64,000 bases of DNA, taken from positions 2,604,001 to 2,668,000 of the forward strand of contig NZ_JAVDYG010000001.1 in assembly GCF_031458325.1 (NCBI RefSeq), given 5' to 3'. Below the pieces are notes generated by a model. That model was given only the letters and a program-made list of their open reading frames with translations. It made no database searches and was not told the origin of the DNA. Origin of the DNA: Nocardioides marmoribigeumensis. Its GTDB lineage: Bacteria > Actinomycetota > Actinomycetes > Propionibacteriales > Nocardioidaceae. Positions 48,327 to 59,915 of this stretch are shown here, in pieces. Each line of letters opens with the position of its first letter. Position 1 is the stretch's first letter. Made by a program: the position numbers and the translations under genes.

Positions 48327-49703
<1,377 letters not shown>

Positions 49704-49769: not shown

Positions 49770-52700
49770 ATGGTCAGGTGCACGGCGTGCGGCACGGAGT
49801 GCCCGTCCGGCACGAAGTTCTGCGGCGAGTGCGGCGCGCGGCTGGCCCCGGCCGCGTGCTCGGCGTGCGGGACCACGCTGGCGCCCGGGGTGAAGTTCTG
49901 CGGCGAGTGCGGGGCCCCGGTGGCCGCCGGCGCCGCGCGTGAGCCGATGGCCGCCCCGGTCGCGTCGCGACGGGTGACCAGCGTGCTGTTCGGCGACCTG
50001 GTCGGGTTCACGACCTTGTCGGAGTCGCGTGACCAGGAGGAGGTGCGCGAGCTCCTCGGGCGCTACTTCGACGAGTGCCGCACGATCGTCGGGCACTACG
50101 GCGGCACGGTGGAGAAGTTCATCGGTGACGCGGTCATGGCGGTGTGGGGGGTGCCGACGGCCTACGAGGACGACGCGGAGCGGGCGGTGCGGGCCGGTCT
50201 CGAGATGACCGCCCGGGTCGCGGCCCTGGGCTCCGACCTGCGGCTCGACGGTCTGGCGATGCGCGTGGGCGTGGTCACCGGCGAGGTCGCGGTGACCGTC
50301 GGAGCGACGGGGCAGGGCATGGTGGCGGGCGACCCGGTCAACACCGCGGCCCGCGTCCAGTCGGTCGCGGGGCCGGGACAGGTCTGGGTCGACGAGACGA
50401 CGCGGCTGCTCACGTCGTCGTCGATCAGCTACGTCGACGCCGGCTCGCACGCGCTCAAGGGCAAGGCCGAGCCGGTGCCGCTGTGGTCGGTGCGCGCGGT
50501 CGTCGCCGCGAGCGGAGGTGCCCAGCGGGCCGACGGGCTCGAGGCGCCGCTGGTCGGCCGGGACCGCGAGCTGCGGCTGCTCAAGGAGCACTTCCACGCG
50601 ACGCTGGAGTCCGGTCGCCCCCAGCTCACGCTCGTCAGCTCCGAGCCCGGTGTCGGCAAGAGCCGCCTGGGCTGGGAGTTCTTCAAGTACGTCGACGGGC
50701 TGAGCACGACCGTCCGCTGGAACGAGGGCCGCTGCCTGGCGTACGGCGAGGGGGTCGCCTACTCCGCCCTCGCCGACATCGTGCGCGCCCGGCTGCGCGT
50801 GCCGCTCGAGGAGGACGACGGCGACCCGGGCCCGGAGCGCCTGCTCTCCGACGGCCTGTCGGCCTACGTCCCGGACGCCGACGAGCGGGCCTGGCTGCGC
50901 CCGCGGCTGGCGACCCTGCTCGGCGTACCCGGTGGGGACGCGTTCGCCCGCGAGGACCTGTTCACGGCCTGGACGGCGTTCTTCGAGCGGGTCGCGGCCG
51001 ACTCGTCCGGCCTGGTGCTCGTGCTCGACGACGCGCAGTACGCCGACGACGGGCTCGTGCTGTTCCTCGAGCACCTCCTGGCCACGGCGTCGTTCCCGTG
51101 CTTCGTCCTCGCGCTCGCGCGGCCCGCCCTGCTCGAGGCCCAGCCCGGTCTCCCGGCCAACCGGCGCGTGACGGTCCTGCACCTGGACACCCTGAGCGCC
51201 GCGGACCTCGCCCTCCTCGTCGAGGGGCTGGTGGCCGGCGTCCCCGACCCGGTGCGGGACGGCCTGGTCGCCCGGGCCGACGGCGTGCCGCTGTTCGCGG
51301 TCGAGACGGTCCGCTCGTTGATCGACCGCGACCTGGTGGTGCCGCGAGGAGGGCAGTACGTCCTCGCCACCGAGGACGTCGACCTCGACGGGATCGGCGC
51401 GCCGGCCTCGTTGCAGGCCCTGGTCAGCGCCCGGCTCGACACCCTGTCCAGCGAGCAGCGGCGGGTGGTCGAGATGGGCAGCGTGCTGGGCACGACCTTC
51501 CGACGCGACGAGCTCGCGGTGCTCTGCCCGGGGGTCGACCTGGACGAGGCGCTCCCCGCCCTCGTGCGCACGCAGATCCTCGACGTGGAGTCCAGCCGGC
51601 TGTCCGCCGAGCACGGCCACTTCCGTTTCGTGCAGGACGTCGTGCGCCAGGTGGCCTACGGGTCGCTCTCGCGGCGTGACCGCAGGGCCGCCCACCTCGC
51701 CGTCGTCGCGCTGCTGGAGCAGGACGCCCGCGAGGAGATCGCCCCGATCCTGGCGCAGCACTACCTCGACGCCGCGGACTCCCTCCCCGACGCCGACGAC
51801 GCCGAGCAGCTCACCCGGCTGGCCGTGGAGCACCTGCGCCGGGCCGCCACCCGCGCCGGCTCCCTGGGGGCCACCGGGGAGGCGGTGGCCCATCTCAAGG
51901 TCGCGCTGCGGCACGCGGGGGAGGGTCGCGAGACCGCCGAGGTGCAGTCTGCGCTCGCGGAGGCGCTCTTCGCCGTCGGCTCGTCCGCCGAGGCGATCAC
52001 GTTGGCGGTGGCTGCCGGTGAGCACTTCGAGGAGGTCGGTGACCCCGTCGCCGCCGGCTACGCGGCGAGCCTGCACGCACTCCTGCTCAACAACCAGCTC
52101 AACGCCTCGGACGGGCTGACGATCGCGCTGCCGCACTGGGAGCGGCTCAAGGGGCGCGACGACGCCGACGCCACGCTGCTGCGCCTGGGCACCGCCATCC
52201 ACTACGCGCAGCGTTCCCTCGGGCTGGACACCCGCGACGTGGTCGAGGAGATGCTGCGGATCAGCCTGGTGACGGGGGGCAACGACCTGGTCATCGGGCT
52301 CCAGGCGCTCTGCACCTACTTCATCGGCCGCGACCTCACGCCGCTCGCCGCTCCGCTGAGCGGGATGGCCGTGGAGGTCGCGCGGTCGACCGGGCGCACG
52401 GACACGCTGGCCCGGGCCCTGGTGAACAAGGTCATCCTCGACATGACCGAGCACCTGCCCACCGCGCTCCGGACCGCTGAGGAGGGCTCCGCCGCGAGCC
52501 GGCTCGGGGGGTTCGCGAGCCTGCGAGCGGTCGCGTTGATCAACACGATGACCGTGCGCTTCAACCTGGGCGCCTGGGACGAGCTGCCCCGCGCGGACGA
52601 CGAGGAGCTGGTCGAGCTGGGCGAGCAGTACGAGTTCCTCGGCCCGATGGCCGGGTGCGTCCGGGGTCTCGTCGACCGGGCGTCCGGCCGGCCGGTGGTC

Positions 52701-53261
52701 GCGCCCTGGCCGGACGAGCCGCCGGTCATCGACGAGGACGAGACGATGGCCTGGGTGCGCATGTGCGAGGCGCTCCTGGCCCAGGACGCCGGCCAGGACG
52801 AGCGTGCGGTGACCCTGGCCGTCGAGTCCTGCCGGCTGATCAGCGTGCTGGGCCTCGGCGACGACTTCCCCTTCCTGTTCGCCGCGGCGTGCGAGGTCGT
52901 GGTGGCCGCGGGCTCGGGTCACGAGGCGCTCCTGGAGCTGATCGGCAGCCGGCGCATGCTCCTGCCCCGGGCCCTCCGCGGCCATCGCGCCTGGCTCCAG
53001 GGCGCGTGGGAGCTGCACGCGGGGCGTCCCGTGGAGGCGGAGCTCGCGCTGCGCGAGGCCCTGGAGCACCACCGTGCCTGGGAGTCACCGGTCCACGTCG
53101 CCCGGTCCGAGTCCCTGCTGGCGGTGGCCCTCCACCAGCAGGGCCGCGTCGAGGAGGCCGCGGAGGCCGCCGCCTCGGCAGGCGTCGTGCTGGACCGGCT
53201 CGGTGCCACCGCCTGGGCGAGCGAGCTCGACCCGGCGGTCCTCGGAGGTGTGGCGCGATGA
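49770..53261 (+). CDS. Multidomain signalling protein 1: zinc ribbons, class III nucleotide cyclase domain, AAA-type NTPase, TPR-like tail
   Basis: A 1163-residue protein. Residues 4-47 are two zinc ribbons (CxxC pairs at 4/7, 18/21, 30/33, 44/47). Residues about 67-245 are a class III cyclase domain: metal-binding Asp76 (VLFGDLVGFT) and Asp120, Lys116 in KFIGD, Asn191 and Arg195 (VNTAAR); the usual substrate-specifying Asp/Thr position is Met184. Residues about 258-480 are an AAA-type NTPase with Walker A SEPGVGKS (first Gly replaced by Ser) and Walker B GLVLVLDD (414-421). The C-terminal 500 residues are helical, TPR-like. No DNA-binding domain or membrane segment is seen. Such proteins are thought to link small-molecule sensing to cyclic nucleotide or NTPase output. 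The next gene is a coupled paralogue. Whether it makes cAMP, cGMP or nothing is open. Confidence 0.85.
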   Translation: MVRCTACGTECPSGTKFCGECGARLAPAACSACGTTLAPGVKFCGECGAPVAAGAAREPMAAPVASRRVTSVLFGDLVGFTTLSESRDQEEVRELLGRYFDECRTIVGHYGGTVEKFIGDAVMAVWGVPTAYEDDAERAVRAGLEMTARVAALGSDLRLDGLAMRVGVVTGEVAVTVGATGQGMVAGDPVNTAARVQSVAGPGQVWVDETTRLLTSSSISYVDAGSHALKGKAEPVPLWSVRAVVAASGGAQRADGLEAPLVGRDRELRLLKEHFHATLESGRPQLTLVSSEPGVGKSRLGWEFFKYVDGLSTTVRWNEGRCLAYGEGVAYSALADIVRARLRVPLEEDDGDPGPERLLSDGLSAYVPDADERAWLRPRLATLLGVPGGDAFAREDLFTAWTAFFERVAADSSGLVLVLDDAQYADDGLVLFLEHLLATASFPCFVLALARPALLEAQPGLPANRRVTVLHLDTLSAADLALLVEGLVAGVPDPVRDGLVARADGVPLFAVETVRSLIDRDLVVPRGGQYVLATEDVDLDGIGAPASLQALVSARLDTLSSEQRRVVEMGSVLGTTFRRDELAVLCPGVDLDEALPALVRTQILDVESSRLSAEHGHFRFVQDVVRQVAYGSLSRRDRRAAHLAVVALLEQDAREEIAPILAQHYLDAADSLPDADDAEQLTRLAVEHLRRAATRAGSLGATGEAVAHLKVALRHAGEGRETAEVQSALAEALFAVGSSAEAITLAVAAGEHFEEVGDPVAAGYAASLHALLLNNQLNASDGLTIALPHWERLKGRDDADATLLRLGTAIHYAQRSLGLDTRDVVEEMLRISLVTGGNDLVIGLQALCTYFIGRDLTPLAAPLSGMAVEVARSTGRTDTLARALVNKVILDMTEHLPTALRTAEEGSAASRLGGFASLRAVALINTMTVRFNLGAWDELPRADDEELVELGEQYEFLGPMAGCVRGLVDRASGRPVVAPWPDEPPVIDEDETMAWVRMCEALLAQDAGQDERAVTLAVESCRLISVLGLGDDFPFLFAAACEVVVAAGSGHEALLELIGSRRMLLPRALRGHRAWLQGAWELHAGRPVEAELALREALEHHRAWESPVHVARSESLLAVALHQQGRVEEAAEAAASAGVVLDRLGATAWASELDPAVLGGVAR

Positions 53262-56200
53262 ACCGGTGCACTGCCTGCGGGGTCGAGACCCCGGCAGGGG
53301 CGAGGTTCTGCCCGGAGTGCGGCACCCCGACGACCCCTCCCGGATGCGCGTCCTGCGGCAGCGCCCTCACCCCGGGAGCGAAGTTCTGCGCGGAGTGCGG
53401 CACCCCGGTCGCCGGCGCGACACCCGTCGTACCCCGCGTCGAGGGCAACGGCCCGGTCGCCGCCCGTCGCGTCACCAGCGTGCTCTTCGGCGACCTGGTC
53501 GGCTTCACGGCGCTGTCGGAGTCGCGTGACCAGGAGGAGGTCCGCGAGCTGCTGAGCCGCTACTTCGACGAGTGCCGCACGATCGTGGGCCACTACGACG
53601 GCATGGTCGAGAAGTTCATCGGCGACGCGGTCATGGCGGTGTGGGGCGTGCCGACGGCCTACGAGGACGACGCCGAGCGGGCCGTCCGGGCCGGTCTCGA
53701 GATGACCGCCCGGGTCGCCGCGCTGGGGGCCGACCTCGGCGTCGAGGGCCTGTCCATGCGCGTGGGCGTGGTCACCGGCGAGGTCGCGGTGACCGTCGGC
53801 GCCACGGGTCAGGGCATGGTCGCCGGCGACCCGGTCAACACCGCGGCCCGCGTCCAGGCGGTCGCCGGTCCGGGCCAGGTCTGGGTCGACGAGACGACGC
53901 GGCTGCTCACGTCGTCGTCGATCACCTACGTCGACGCCGGGTCGCACGCGCTCAAGGGCAAGGCCGAGCCGGTGCCGCTGTGGTCGGTGCGTGCGGTCGT
54001 CGCCGCCCGCGGCGGGTCCCAGCGGGCCGACGGCCTCGAGGCGCCGCTGACCGGCCGTGACCGCGAGCTGCGGCTGCTCAAGGAGCACTTCCACGCCACG
54101 CTCGAGTCCGGGCGTCCCCAGCTCGCCCTGGTCAGCGCGGAGCCCGGTGTCGGCAAGAGCCGCCTGGGCTGGGAGTTCTTCAAGTACGTCGACGGGCTGA
54201 GCACGACGGTGACGTGGAACGAGGGCCGCTGCCTGGCGTACGGCGAGGGGGTCGCCTACTCCGCGCTCGCCGACATGGTGCGCGCCCGGCTGCGCCAGCC
54301 GCTCGGCGACGACGAGGCCGACCCGAGCTCGGAGCGGCTGCTCGCCGACGGCCTCACGGCGTACGTCCCCGATGCCGAGGAGCAGGCGTGGCTGCGTCCG
54401 CGGCTGGCGACGCTCCTCGGGGTCCCGGGCGGTGACTCGTTCGCCCGTGAGGACCTCTTCACCGCGTGGACCGGGTTCTTCGAGCGGGTGGCGGCCGACT
54501 CCGCGGGCCTGGTGCTGGTGCTCGACGACGCGCAGTACGCCGATGACGGGCTGGTGCTGTTCCTCGAGCACCTGCTGTCCACCGCGTCGTTCCCCTGCTT
54601 CGTGCTCGCCCTCGCACGGCCGGCGCTGCTCGAGGCCCACCCGGGTCTCGCGACCAACCGGCGGGTGACGGTCCTGCACCTGGACACCCTCAGCGACCGT
54701 GACATGACGCTGCTGGTGGAGGGGCTCGTGGCGGGCATCCCGGCCGGGGTGCGCGACGGCCTCGTCGCCCGAGCGGACGGCGTCCCGCTCTTCGCGGTCG
54801 AGACGGTCCGCTCGCTGATCGACCGCGACCTGGTCGTGCCGCGCGGCGGGCAGTACGTCCTCGCCGGCGACGAGGTGGACCTCGACGCCATCGGGGCCCC
54901 CGCCTCCCTGCAGGCCCTCGTGGGGGCCCGCCTGGACACCCTCTCACCGGAGCAGCGCCGGGTCGTGGAGATGGGCAGCGTGCTCGGGGCGACCTTCCGC
55001 CGCGAGGAGCTGCAGGTGCTGTGCCCGGGCGTGGACCTCGACCAGGTCCTGCCGGCGCTGGTGCGCACGCAGATCCTCGACCTCGAGGCGAGCCGGCTGT
55101 CGGCCGAGCACGGGCAGTACGGCTTCGTGCAGGACGTGGTGCGGCAGGTGGCCTACGGCTCGCTGTCGCGGCGCGACCGCAAGGCCGCCCACCTCGCCGT
55201 GGTCGCCCTGCTGGAGTCCGAGACCGAGTCGACCGCCGAGCTGGCCCCGATCCTCGCCCAGCACTACCTCGACGCCGCCGAGGCCGTGGCCGGCGACGAG
55301 GACGCGGCCGAGCTCACCCACCAGGCGGTCACGCACCTGCGCCGCGCGGCCTCGCGCGCCCGGGACCTGGGCGCCAGCGGCGAGTCGGTGGCCCACATGC
55401 GTCGTGCCCGCGAGCACGCGGTCCCCGGCCGCGAGGCGGCGGAGGTGGAGGCCGAGCTGGCGACGAGCCTGACCAGGGCGGGAGTCATCGGCGAGGCGGT
55501 GGAGCACGCCACGCGCGCCGTCGCCGCCTTCGAGGACCTCGGCGACGTCGTGGCGGCGGGCCTCGCGGTCGGCACGCTCGCGCAGGCGCTCAACAACCAG
55601 CCGAACCCCGTCGCGACCCTCGAGGTGGCGGAGCCGCACTGGGAGCGCCTGCTCGAGCGTGAGGACGCCGACGAGGCGTTGCTCGAGATCGCCCCGCCCC
55701 TGCTGTTCGCGCGCCGCGCCCTCGGGCTGGACTACCGCGAGATCGCGGAGACCCAGGTGCGCATCTCCTCCGCGACCGGTGGACGGGACCTGTCGGTGGG
55801 CCTGCAGTCGCTCAGCGCCTACTACATGGGCCGCGACCTCCCTGCCGTCGCGACCCCGCTCGCCGCGCGGGCCGTCGAGGTGGCGCGCACCGAGGGCAGG
55901 CCCGACAACCTGAGCCGAGGCCTCATGCAGCAGGTGATCCTCGAGATGACCGAGGACCTCCCGTCGGCCTCCGGCATCTCCGCGGAGATGGCGTCGGTGG
56001 CCCGGCAGACCGGCTTCCGGACCTACCAGGTCGTGGCCGAGGTCAACTCCCTCAGCATCGGGTTCCACCTCGGTGAGTGGAGCGAGCCGATCGGCCACGC
56101 CCGCCACGTGGAGATGTGCGAGCAGTTCCCGTTCTTCGCCCCGATGATGTCGGCGTTCCGGGGGCTGCGCTCCCGGGCGGTGCGAGGCCTCTTCGAGGCG

Positions 56201-56773
56201 CCGTGGGAGGGGACCACGACGGACTTCGACGAGGACGAGACGATGGCCTGGGTCCGGCTCTGCGAGGCGTTCACGGCCGCGGACCGGGCTGATCCGGAGA
56301 GGTCCGTCGACCTCGCCATCGAGGCGTGCCGCCTGATGAGTGTGATCGGCTTCGGCGACGACTTCCCGACCGTCTTCCAGGGTGCGTGCGAGCTGGTGCT
56401 GGAGGCAGGGCTCCCCACCGGGCACTCCGACCTGCTGGCGCTCGGGGGCGGACCACGTGTGGCCGTGCCGCGGGCGCTGCGCGGGCACCGCGCTCGGCTC
56501 CGCGGTGCCTGGCAGGCCCGCTACGGCGACGACCAGGTCGAGGCCGAGCTGCGCCTGCGCGAGGCGATGGAGCACTACGAGGCGTGGGGCTCACCGGTCC
56601 ACCTCGCCCGCACCCGGGCCGACCTCGCCCTCACCCTCGCCCGGCAGGGGAGGGCCGAGGAGGCCGAGGAGGCGCGCTCGCTGGCGCGGGCGACGTACGA
56701 GCAGCTGGGCGCGGCGGCCTGGCTGCTCCAGCTCGAGCAGCAGGACGTCCGGCAGGCGCGTGCGGGGGGCTAG
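53258..56773 (+). CDS. Multidomain signalling protein 2 (tandem paralogue of protein 1)
   Basis: A 1171-residue paralogue starting at an ATG that overlaps the preceding stop (ATGA), with GGAGG nine bases upstream. The architecture is identical: zinc ribbons (Cys 4/7, 18/21, 30/33, 44/47), cyclase domain with Asp79, Lys119, Asp123, Met187, Asn194, Arg198, NTPase with Walker A AEPGVGKS at about 294-301 and Walker B GLVLVLDD, and a helical tail. Similarity to protein 1 is very high from the cyclase domain to about residue 670, then drops sharply in the tail. Coupled synthesis and matched catalytic domains suggest they work as a heterodimer, as class III cyclases need two domains to form an active site. 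The divergent tails may sense different partners. Biochemical activity is unproven. Confidence 0.85.
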   Translation: MNRCTACGVETPAGARFCPECGTPTTPPGCASCGSALTPGAKFCAECGTPVAGATPVVPRVEGNGPVAARRVTSVLFGDLVGFTALSESRDQEEVRELLSRYFDECRTIVGHYDGMVEKFIGDAVMAVWGVPTAYEDDAERAVRAGLEMTARVAALGADLGVEGLSMRVGVVTGEVAVTVGATGQGMVAGDPVNTAARVQAVAGPGQVWVDETTRLLTSSSITYVDAGSHALKGKAEPVPLWSVRAVVAARGGSQRADGLEAPLTGRDRELRLLKEHFHATLESGRPQLALVSAEPGVGKSRLGWEFFKYVDGLSTTVTWNEGRCLAYGEGVAYSALADMVRARLRQPLGDDEADPSSERLLADGLTAYVPDAEEQAWLRPRLATLLGVPGGDSFAREDLFTAWTGFFERVAADSAGLVLVLDDAQYADDGLVLFLEHLLSTASFPCFVLALARPALLEAHPGLATNRRVTVLHLDTLSDRDMTLLVEGLVAGIPAGVRDGLVARADGVPLFAVETVRSLIDRDLVVPRGGQYVLAGDEVDLDAIGAPASLQALVGARLDTLSPEQRRVVEMGSVLGATFRREELQVLCPGVDLDQVLPALVRTQILDLEASRLSAEHGQYGFVQDVVRQVAYGSLSRRDRKAAHLAVVALLESETESTAELAPILAQHYLDAAEAVAGDEDAAELTHQAVTHLRRAASRARDLGASGESVAHMRRAREHAVPGREAAEVEAELATSLTRAGVIGEAVEHATRAVAAFEDLGDVVAAGLAVGTLAQALNNQPNPVATLEVAEPHWERLLEREDADEALLEIAPPLLFARRALGLDYREIAETQVRISSATGGRDLSVGLQSLSAYYMGRDLPAVATPLAARAVEVARTEGRPDNLSRGLMQQVILEMTEDLPSASGISAEMASVARQTGFRTYQVVAEVNSLSIGFHLGEWSEPIGHARHVEMCEQFPFFAPMMSAFRGLRSRAVRGLFEAPWEGTTTDFDEDETMAWVRLCEAFTAADRADPERSVDLAIEACRLMSVIGFGDDFPTVFQGACELVLEAGLPTGHSDLLALGGGPRVAVPRALRGHRARLRGAWQARYGDDQVEAELRLREAMEHYEAWGSPVHLARTRADLALTLARQGRAEEAEEARSLARATYEQLGAAAWLLQLEQQDVRQARAGG

Positions 56774-57286: not shown

Positions 57287-57368
57287 CGGCTCAGCCCTCG
57301 GTGAGGAAGGGGACCCCGTGGTGGCGTGGCAGCGGTAGCCGTGGGGGTTCCTGGCGAGGTACTGCTGG
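57287..57368 (-). pseudogene. Fragment of msrA 3' end (direct repeat of 58032-58114)
   Basis: About 82 bases match the 3' end of the intact msrA with only a handful of differences and in the same orientation. On the minus strand it reads [18 protein letters not shown], against [18 protein letters not shown] in MsrA, and then a one-base deletion shifts the frame. There is no catalytic part, so it cannot make an enzyme. Together with the intact end it flanks a 660-base insert with two small genes, the pattern left by integration at, or duplication of, a gene 3' end. Confidence 0.85.
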
Positions 57369-57377
57369 GGGGACCGA

Positions 57378-58000: not shown

Positions 58001-58035
58001 TCGGGCCCGCGGTCGTGCCCCGACTCCAAGCCGGC

Positions 58036-58683
58036 TCAGCCCTCGGTGGGGAACGGGACTCCCGTGGTGGCGTGGCAGCGGTAGCCGTGGGGGTTCTTGG
58101 CGAGGTACTGCTGGTGGTGGTCCTCGGCGTAGTAGTACGGCGGCGCCGGCGCGACCTCGGTGGTGATCGGGTCGTAGCCGCGGCGGGCGAGCTCCTCGCC
58201 GTAGACCTTGGTCAGTCGCTCGGCGACCTCGACCTGCTCGGGGGTGGTGGTGTAGATCGCGGAGCGGTACTGCGTGCCGACGTCGTTGCCCTGGCGCATG
58301 CCCTGCGTGGGGTCGTGGACCTCGAAGAACGTCTTGACCAGCGTCGCGTAGTCGACCTTCGTGGGGTCGTAGACCACGCGGACCGCCTCGGTGTGGCCGG
58401 TGCGGCCCGAGCAGACCTCCTCGTAGGACGGGTGGGGGGTCTCGCCGCCGGCGTAGCCCACCGAGGTGGACCAGACGCCGGGGACCTGCCAGTAGATCTC
58501 CTCCGCGCCCCAGAAGCAGCCGAGGCCGAACACGGCGACCTCGAGGCCCTCGGGGACCTCGTCGGTGACCAGCGGGGTGCCGAGCACCAGGTGGCGCTCG
58601 GAGAGGTGGAAGGGGCGCTCGGGGCGGCCGGCGAGGGCCTCACCCGGCGCCGGGAGGGTCGCAGCGCGGCGCGAGAAGAGCAT
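58036..58683 (-). CDS. msrA: Peptide methionine sulfoxide reductase A
   Basis: MsrA, 215 residues, reduces methionine-S-sulfoxide in proteins. The catalytic cysteine is Cys56 in [31 protein letters not shown], split by function, and the [15 protein letters not shown] end with the resolving cysteine are present. About 50 N-terminal residues precede the core, as in many actinobacterial forms. ATG at 58683 behind AGGGA on the minus strand. Its 3' end is repeated at 57287-57368. Divergent from metB. Confidence 0.95.
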
Positions 58684-58742
58684 GGTGGTCCCTTCGAGGT
58701 GGACGGGGGTTCCCCTCCAGTTTCCCGCTCCGGTCAAGCGGC

Positions 58743-58748
58743 TACGGT
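58743..58748 (+). promoter_or_regulatory. -10 element of metB (leaderless)
   Basis: TACGGT ends six bases before the ATG at 58755; GGAGG directly touching the ATG is too close for normal Shine-Dalgarno use. Confidence 0.55.
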
Positions 58749-58754
58749 CGGAGG

Positions 58755-59915
58755 ATGAGCGACGAGCACCCCCCCGAGCTGGGTTTCGAGTCCCGTGCGA
58801 TCCACGTCGGCTCCGAGCCCGACGCCGCGACCGGCAGCGTGATCCCGCCGATCTACGCCACCAGCACCTACAAGCAGGACGGTGTGGGAGGGCTGCGCGG
58901 CGGCTACGAGTACTCCCGCAGCGGCAACCCGACCCGCACCGCCCTGGAGCGCTGCCTGGCCAGCCTCGAGGGCGGGAGCCACGGGTTCGCGTTCGCCAGC
59001 GGCCTCGCGGCCGAGGACACGCTGCTCCGCACGATCTGCCGCCCGGGGGACCACGTCGTCGTACCCGATGACGCCTACGGCGGCACCTACCGGCTGGTCG
59101 ACCAGGTCGAGCGGCCGTGGGGGCTGGAGCACTCCACCGCGCCGGTCAGCGACCCCGAGGCCGTCGCAGCCGCGATCCGGCCGGGGGAGACCAGGGCGGT
59201 GTGGGTCGAGACCCCGACCAACCCGCTGCTCAACATCGCCGACCTCGCGGCCCTGGCCGAGGTCGCCCACGACGCGGGCGCGCTGCTGGTGGTCGACAAC
59301 ACCTTCGCCTCGTCCTACCTCCAGCAGCCGATCTCGCACGGCGCCGACGTCGTCCTCCACAGCACCACGAAGTACGCCGGCGGGCACAGCGACGTGGTCG
59401 GCGGTGCCCTGGTGGTCCACGACGAGCAGCTGGCCGAGCGCATCGGCTTCCACCAGAACGCCATGGGCGCCGTGGCCGGTCCGTTCGACTCCTGGCTCGT
59501 GCTGCGCGGCCTCAAGACCCTCGCCCTGCGGATGGAGCGCCACTGCGACAACGCCGAGGCGGTGGTGCGGTTCCTCGAGCAGCACCCCGGGGTGGGCGAG
59601 GTGTTCTACCCCGGCCGCTCGGGCCACCCGGGCCACGAGGTCGCGGCGCGCCAGATGAAGCGGTTCGGCGGCATCGTGTCGTTCCGGGTCAAGGCGGGCG
59701 AGCAGGCCGCGGTCGACCTGTGCGGGCGCACGCAGGTGTGGACCCTGGGAGAGTCGCTCGGCGGGGTCGAGTCGCTGATCGAGCACCCGGGCCGGATGAC
59801 CCACGCCTCGGTGAGCGGCACCGAGCTGGAGGTGCCCGCCGACCTGGTGCGCCTCAGCGTGGGGGTCGAGACCGTCGACGACCTGCTGGTCGACCTCGAG
59901 CAGGCGCTGGGCTGA
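58755..59915 (+). CDS. metB: Cystathionine gamma-synthase / gamma-lyase
   Basis: A 386-residue Cys/Met-metabolism PLP enzyme. The PLP lysine is Lys206 in [37 protein letters not shown] and [10 protein letters not shown] are family signatures. In actinobacteria this group acts as cystathionine gamma-synthase or as the gamma-lyase of reverse transsulfuration. With cbs 10 kb upstream, the lyase direction (homocysteine to cysteine) is plausible. The exact activity cannot be told from the sequence. Leaderless behind TACGGT; divergent from msrA. Confidence 0.9.

Follow-up and report, generated by a model that had tools for sequence, protein, structure and literature searches.

STAND proteins rest in an ADP-bound state and multimerise with ATP once their sensor is triggered (PMC6468293, PMC4381067), and in one described member, PH0952, that sensor is a TPR domain (PMC6468293). 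Among class III nucleotide cyclases, known guanylyl cyclases carry Glu instead of the adenine-specifying Lys, and the base-specifying pair of Cya2 is E-G (PMC4215837); bacterial guanylyl cyclases without the Asp or Thr of the second position include Cya2 (E/G) and XC_0250, which has Ala (PMC3770947). Exchanging Glu for Lys alone (E488K) gives Cya2 a Lys/Gly pair and turns it into an adenylyl cyclase specific for ATP (PMC5995499). In the open-access literature, with subscription papers outside the search, we found no characterised protein that joins zinc ribbons, a class III cyclase and a STAND NTPase. Two such proteins are encoded side by side in a 64,000-nucleotide stretch of the Nocardioides marmoribigeumensis genome (contig NZ_JAVDYG010000001.1, positions 2,604,001 to 2,668,000; hereafter the window, whose own numbering is used below).

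49770..53261, + strand: gene A, a double zinc ribbon, class III cyclase, STAND NTPase and TPR protein of 1163 aa
49779..49913, + strand: A, double zinc ribbon, residues 4-48 (PF12773)
49959..50507, + strand: A, class III cyclase domain, residues 64-246 (Pfam and structure model)
50115..50117, + strand: A, Lys116, the adenine-specifying Lys of class III cyclases, invariant in the family (alignment)
50319..50321, + strand: A, Met184, second base-specifying position (alignment)
50340..50342, + strand: A, Asn191, transition-state Asn (alignment)
50547..51704, + strand: A, predicted STAND nucleotide-binding region, about residues 260-645, with GRDxE, Walker A, Walker B, Arg451 and GxP
50637..50663, + strand: A, Walker A, residues 290-298, Ser replacing the first Gly (alignment)
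51732..53258, + strand: A, helical TPR-type sensor tail, about residues 655-1163 (Pfam and model)
53244..53249, + strand: GGAGGT, probable ribosome-binding site of B, within A (sequence)
53258..53261, + strand: ATGA, stop of A overlapping start of B (sequence)
53258..56773, + strand: gene B, tandem paralogue of A, 1171 aa
53267..53401, + strand: B, double zinc ribbon, residues 4-48 (Pfam)
53456..54004, + strand: B, class III cyclase domain (Pfam)
53816..53818, + strand: B, Met187, second base-specifying position (sequence)
54044..55201, + strand: B, predicted STAND nucleotide-binding region, Walker A AEPGVGKS (Pfam and alignment)
55226..56770, + strand: B, helical TPR-type tail (Pfam)

The original prediction, which read both proteins as zinc ribbon, cyclase and NTPase, is borne out by Pfam: each protein matches the double zinc ribbon, Guanylate_cyc and AAA_16, and weakly TPR, with PF00211 scoring 77.7 and 80.2 bits against a curated cut-off of 21.9. 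The overlap of the two genes by ATGA is likewise present at 53258-53261, and the catalytic residues lie where they had been placed, both in the sequence and in the profile alignment. A has the class III set of metal-binding Asp76 and Asp120, Lys116, transition-state Asn191 and Arg195, and B carries the same six residues as Asp76, Lys116, Asp120, Met184, Asn191 and Arg195 of A at numbers higher by 3. Aligning the position seven residues ahead of the catalytic Asn gave Met184 in A and Met187 in B, not Asp or Thr, so that the adenylyl-type base pair (Lys plus Asp/Thr) is absent: Lys116 is present, but the second site holds Met. The predicted cyclase domain (pLDDT 93) matches CyaB of P. aeruginosa with Z 27.4 (rmsd 2.0, 185 aligned), Cya2 with Z 26.0 and CyaC with Z 25.4, and in the model Met184 lies immediately ahead of a short strand that leads into the catalytic helix.

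Is this Met an oddity of the pair, as had been supposed? We sampled relatives from public genomes from genus to class level, added a second, phylum-level sample and 60 further cyclases, a hand-picked spread from a PF00211 search of 119 genomes of the phylum, and placed all class III domains in a single profile alignment (259 non-redundant domains). Where the cyclase is fused to an NTPase, position 184 proved hydrophobic in 174 of 208 cases, with Met in 110, Leu in 35, Ile in 15, Phe in 9 and Val in 5; this proportion, like the others given here, is descriptive only, since sampling was uneven and the sequences are related. The Met is a family state. Where no NTPase was detected (n=51), 44 domains have Asp (25), Thr (18) or Ser (1), and just three have a hydrophobic residue, all of them zinc-ribbon domains in short frames. 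A less query-biased subset gave a hydrophobic residue in 29/46 zinc-ribbon/NTPase domains, mostly Leu, with Met in 4 and Thr in 11, and in 0/39 domains lacking both zinc ribbon and NTPase. On a domain tree built without these columns the hydrophobic state requires 6 changes, against a shuffled mean of 70, and such a small number indicates a clade trait. Met184 and Met187 thus reflect a trait of clades within a subfamily, and not a peculiarity of the pair; in the near clade Met is the rule and, further out, a hydrophobic residue in general the commonest state, and the Met state of the subfamily is under purifying selection. Some branches of the zinc-ribbon/NTPase cyclase architecture look degenerate, judging from three sequences in which the catalytic Asn is replaced by Gly and the Lys by a gap, Gln or Glu; their genus has 16-17 cyclase genes.

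What does a hydrophobic residue at this site mean for the substrate? Among the 174 hydrophobic-type NTPase-fused domains, Lys116, Asp120 and Arg195 are each kept in 174/174, the Asn in 173/174 and Asp76 in 173/174, the remaining one being a gap. This near-invariance argues for retained catalysis, and no positive evidence emerged for the original proposal of a changed substrate or a nucleotide sensor. The adenine 6-amino group ordinarily donates a hydrogen bond to Asp or Thr, for which Met offers no acceptor, and affinity or selectivity may therefore be lower. The ATP specificity of Cya2 E488K, with its Lys/Gly pair, implies that Asp/Thr is not indispensable, and given the tolerance at this site in the Cya2 work, Met in place of Asp/Thr does not alone predict a new substrate. 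The guanylyl cyclases Cya2 and XC_0250, without Asp/Thr at this site, speak against an adenylyl reading, although they lack the Lys or other residues. The open-access papers searched held no assay of a Lys/hydrophobic cyclase. From the residues present, the substrate is probably ATP, and a changed substrate for this pair is possible but unlikely. For the Lys/hydrophobic STAND-linked subfamily at large, we also think it unlikely that base recognition is distinct and the product something other than, or beyond, cAMP. More specifically, the Met might alter the substrate so that the subfamily yields cGMP, a pyrimidine cyclic nucleotide or a mixture of products, as could be argued from the place of position 184 as second base-specifying site, from the strong correlation of its state with NTPase fusion, and from PADLOC Pycsar cyclase models that match the domain with up to 65 bits. 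We consider this improbable, because Lys116, the main adenine-specifying residue, is retained throughout (174/174) where known guanylyl cyclases have Glu instead (PMC4215837), the PycC matches reflect generic class III similarity, and none of the identified neighbours, CBS (upstream), YCII, msrA and metB (downstream), was recognisable as a Pycsar effector gene. A Pycsar or other defence system was set aside, as the cyclase similarity seen was generic only.

An unusual base-site residue within a multidomain regulator would also suit a cyclase domain that is a catalytically weak nucleotide sensor, leaving the function to the NTPase/TPR part. Had catalysis been lost, some of the catalytic residues would probably have gone with it, whereas those for metal binding and the transition state, and the Lys, hardly vary across the 174 domains and the cyclase is the slowest-evolving part of the protein, which makes this reading very unlikely. 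With dN/dS near 0.12 for the cyclase and 0.19 for the NTPase, both copies are under constraint; pseudogene decay of either was rejected, as both reading frames are open and constrained.

The NTPase region holds, in order, the features that we take to define STAND proteins (a GRExE-like motif, Walker A, Walker B, an Arg sensor and GxP): LVGRDREL at 261, [S/A]EPGVGKS at 291, LVLVLDD at 415, ALARP at 448 and GVP at 505. R264, E267, G294, G296, K297, R451, G505 and P507 are identical in 56/56 rows of the family alignment. The full-length model has a pLDDT of 90, and its top Foldseek match is the STAND-TPR protein PH0952 (6mfv; E 2.6e-11, 736 columns), a match that, with a TM-score of 0.18-0.28 over the whole chain, supports domain order and local folds only. 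Together, the confident model and the invariant motifs mark the NTPase as a predicted STAND switch, for which a cyclase active in dimeric form would be a natural effector. The absence of the first Walker A Gly from both proteins, also part of the original prediction, holds: A has S-EPGVGKS and B A-EPGVGKS, Gly occupies this position in 53/56 relatives, and one other relative shares the loss. It is a genuine minority feature, which may make the switch bind nucleotide less tightly; Ala at this position fits the usual [AG]xxxxGK[ST] P-loop pattern.

A and B share 89% identity in the cyclase/NTPase core and 51% in the TPR tail, and are sisters with 100% support in both the catalytic-core tree and the TPR-tail tree; they stem from a lineage-specific tandem duplication. 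The core/tail contrast, which recurs in other pairs of the family, suggests that the duplicates most likely share their output and differ in what they sense. At fourfold sites the core differs less (79/227) than the tail does (61/107; p 0.00014), and there is weak clustering of identical codons (p 0.01); gene conversion of the core was set aside as not needed, since other family pairs show the same contrast. On one Chloroflexi contig (L054, 474-11591), three cyclase-STAND genes lie head to tail, with tails that diverge far more than their cores.

Must A and B work together? The odd residues common to both had been offered as grounds for a probable heterodimer, but they do not support one: sister genes inherit such residues from one ancestor, and the hydrophobic state prevails across many single-copy relatives. 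The ATGA coupling and 89% core identity would accord with an obligate heterodimer, as would the tandem or near-tandem copies in seven distant loci (L025, L033, L034, L054, L068, L089, L096). Each copy, however, has a full catalytic residue set, the duplication is lineage-specific, and of the closest relatives, L101 (from the same genus), L021, L058 and L063, none has a second copy adjoining the gene within the stretch examined; single-copy homologues abound, so a heterodimer is not needed. We therefore regard an obligate heterodimer as improbable, while A/B heterodimers as such are possible.

The host genome (4.44 Mb, single contig) encodes eight class III cyclase domains, three of which have the architecture described here: those of A and B themselves and one in a further copy at 746 kb. 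It also encodes four cNMP-binding domains that could be receivers of the product. At 2573721-2575084 of the same genome, a cNMP-binding gene lies ~660 bases upstream of an ordinary Asp-type class III cyclase, possibly a self-contained cyclic nucleotide module. Upstream of the pair are genes that, from their translated sequences, we take to be secY, adk, map and cystathionine beta-synthase, and downstream, on the same assumption, a YCII-like gene, msrA and cystathionine gamma-lyase/synthase (metB). The two cystathionine genes thus lie on either side of the pair (window 48327-49703 and 58036-59915), and in three distant actinobacterial loci (L040, L046, L051) related cyclase-STAND genes are likewise near both; a conserved linkage of the pair with cystathionine beta-synthase was rejected, because the closest genus and family relatives lack that gene in the vicinity of the cyclase. 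The 3' end of msrA is present as an 86-base copy, 94% identical, ~750 bases downstream of msrA (57287-57371, 58032-58117), adjoining an apparent remnant sequence.

Taken together, A and B are likely to be duplicated STAND-gated class III cyclases of a large bacterial family, probably adenylyl. The activation that we infer would begin when a ligand or protein is sensed by the TPR tail, possibly together with the zinc ribbons, upon which the STAND NTPase would exchange ADP for ATP and assemble, letting the cyclase domains meet as active dimers and convert ATP to cAMP. Met184 and Met187 would be the normal subfamily state of the second adenine-contacting position, with Lys116 and local packing sufficing for base recognition, and A and B could each form complete homodimers, with mixing possible at 89% core identity.

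Within its family the pair is unremarkable. A hydrophobic second base-specifying residue is widespread in a very large group of multidomain bacterial cyclases, and an enzyme assay of one member would inform the substrate assignment of many proteins annotated as 'adenylate/guanylate cyclase' and bear on whether Lys alone specifies adenine. The substrate identity of the subfamily as a whole is a real but modest question.

CyaB (P. aeruginosa, 3r5g), CyaC (Spirulina, 1wc1) and Cya2 (Synechocystis, 2w01) are class IIIb-type enzymes of the same fold (Z 25-27) and share with A and B both metal Asp, the Asn and the Arg, with the Lys common to CyaB and CyaC. The second base position, by contrast, is Met in A and B, Thr in CyaB and CyaC and Gly in Cya2, and the beta4-beta5 arm is about 2-3 residues shorter in A and B. 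PH0952, MalT and AfsR, STAND ATPases with TPR sensors, have the NTPase motifs and the NTPase-then-TPR order of A and B; the effector is a DNA-binding domain in that group, whereas A and B have in its place an N-terminal cyclase preceded by a double zinc ribbon. The best curated model match across cyclase and NTPase is TIGR03903 (NCBIfam, TOMM system kinase/cyclase fusion protein), with scores of 192.2 and 194.9 bits that are far below its cut-off of 705.75; the kinase region of the model is replaced by zinc ribbons in A and B. We also take mammalian soluble adenylyl cyclase, ADCY10, to be alike in placing a cyclase before an NTPase and a long helical-repeat tail, and presumably unlike A and B in having two cyclase domains in one chain and no double zinc ribbon.
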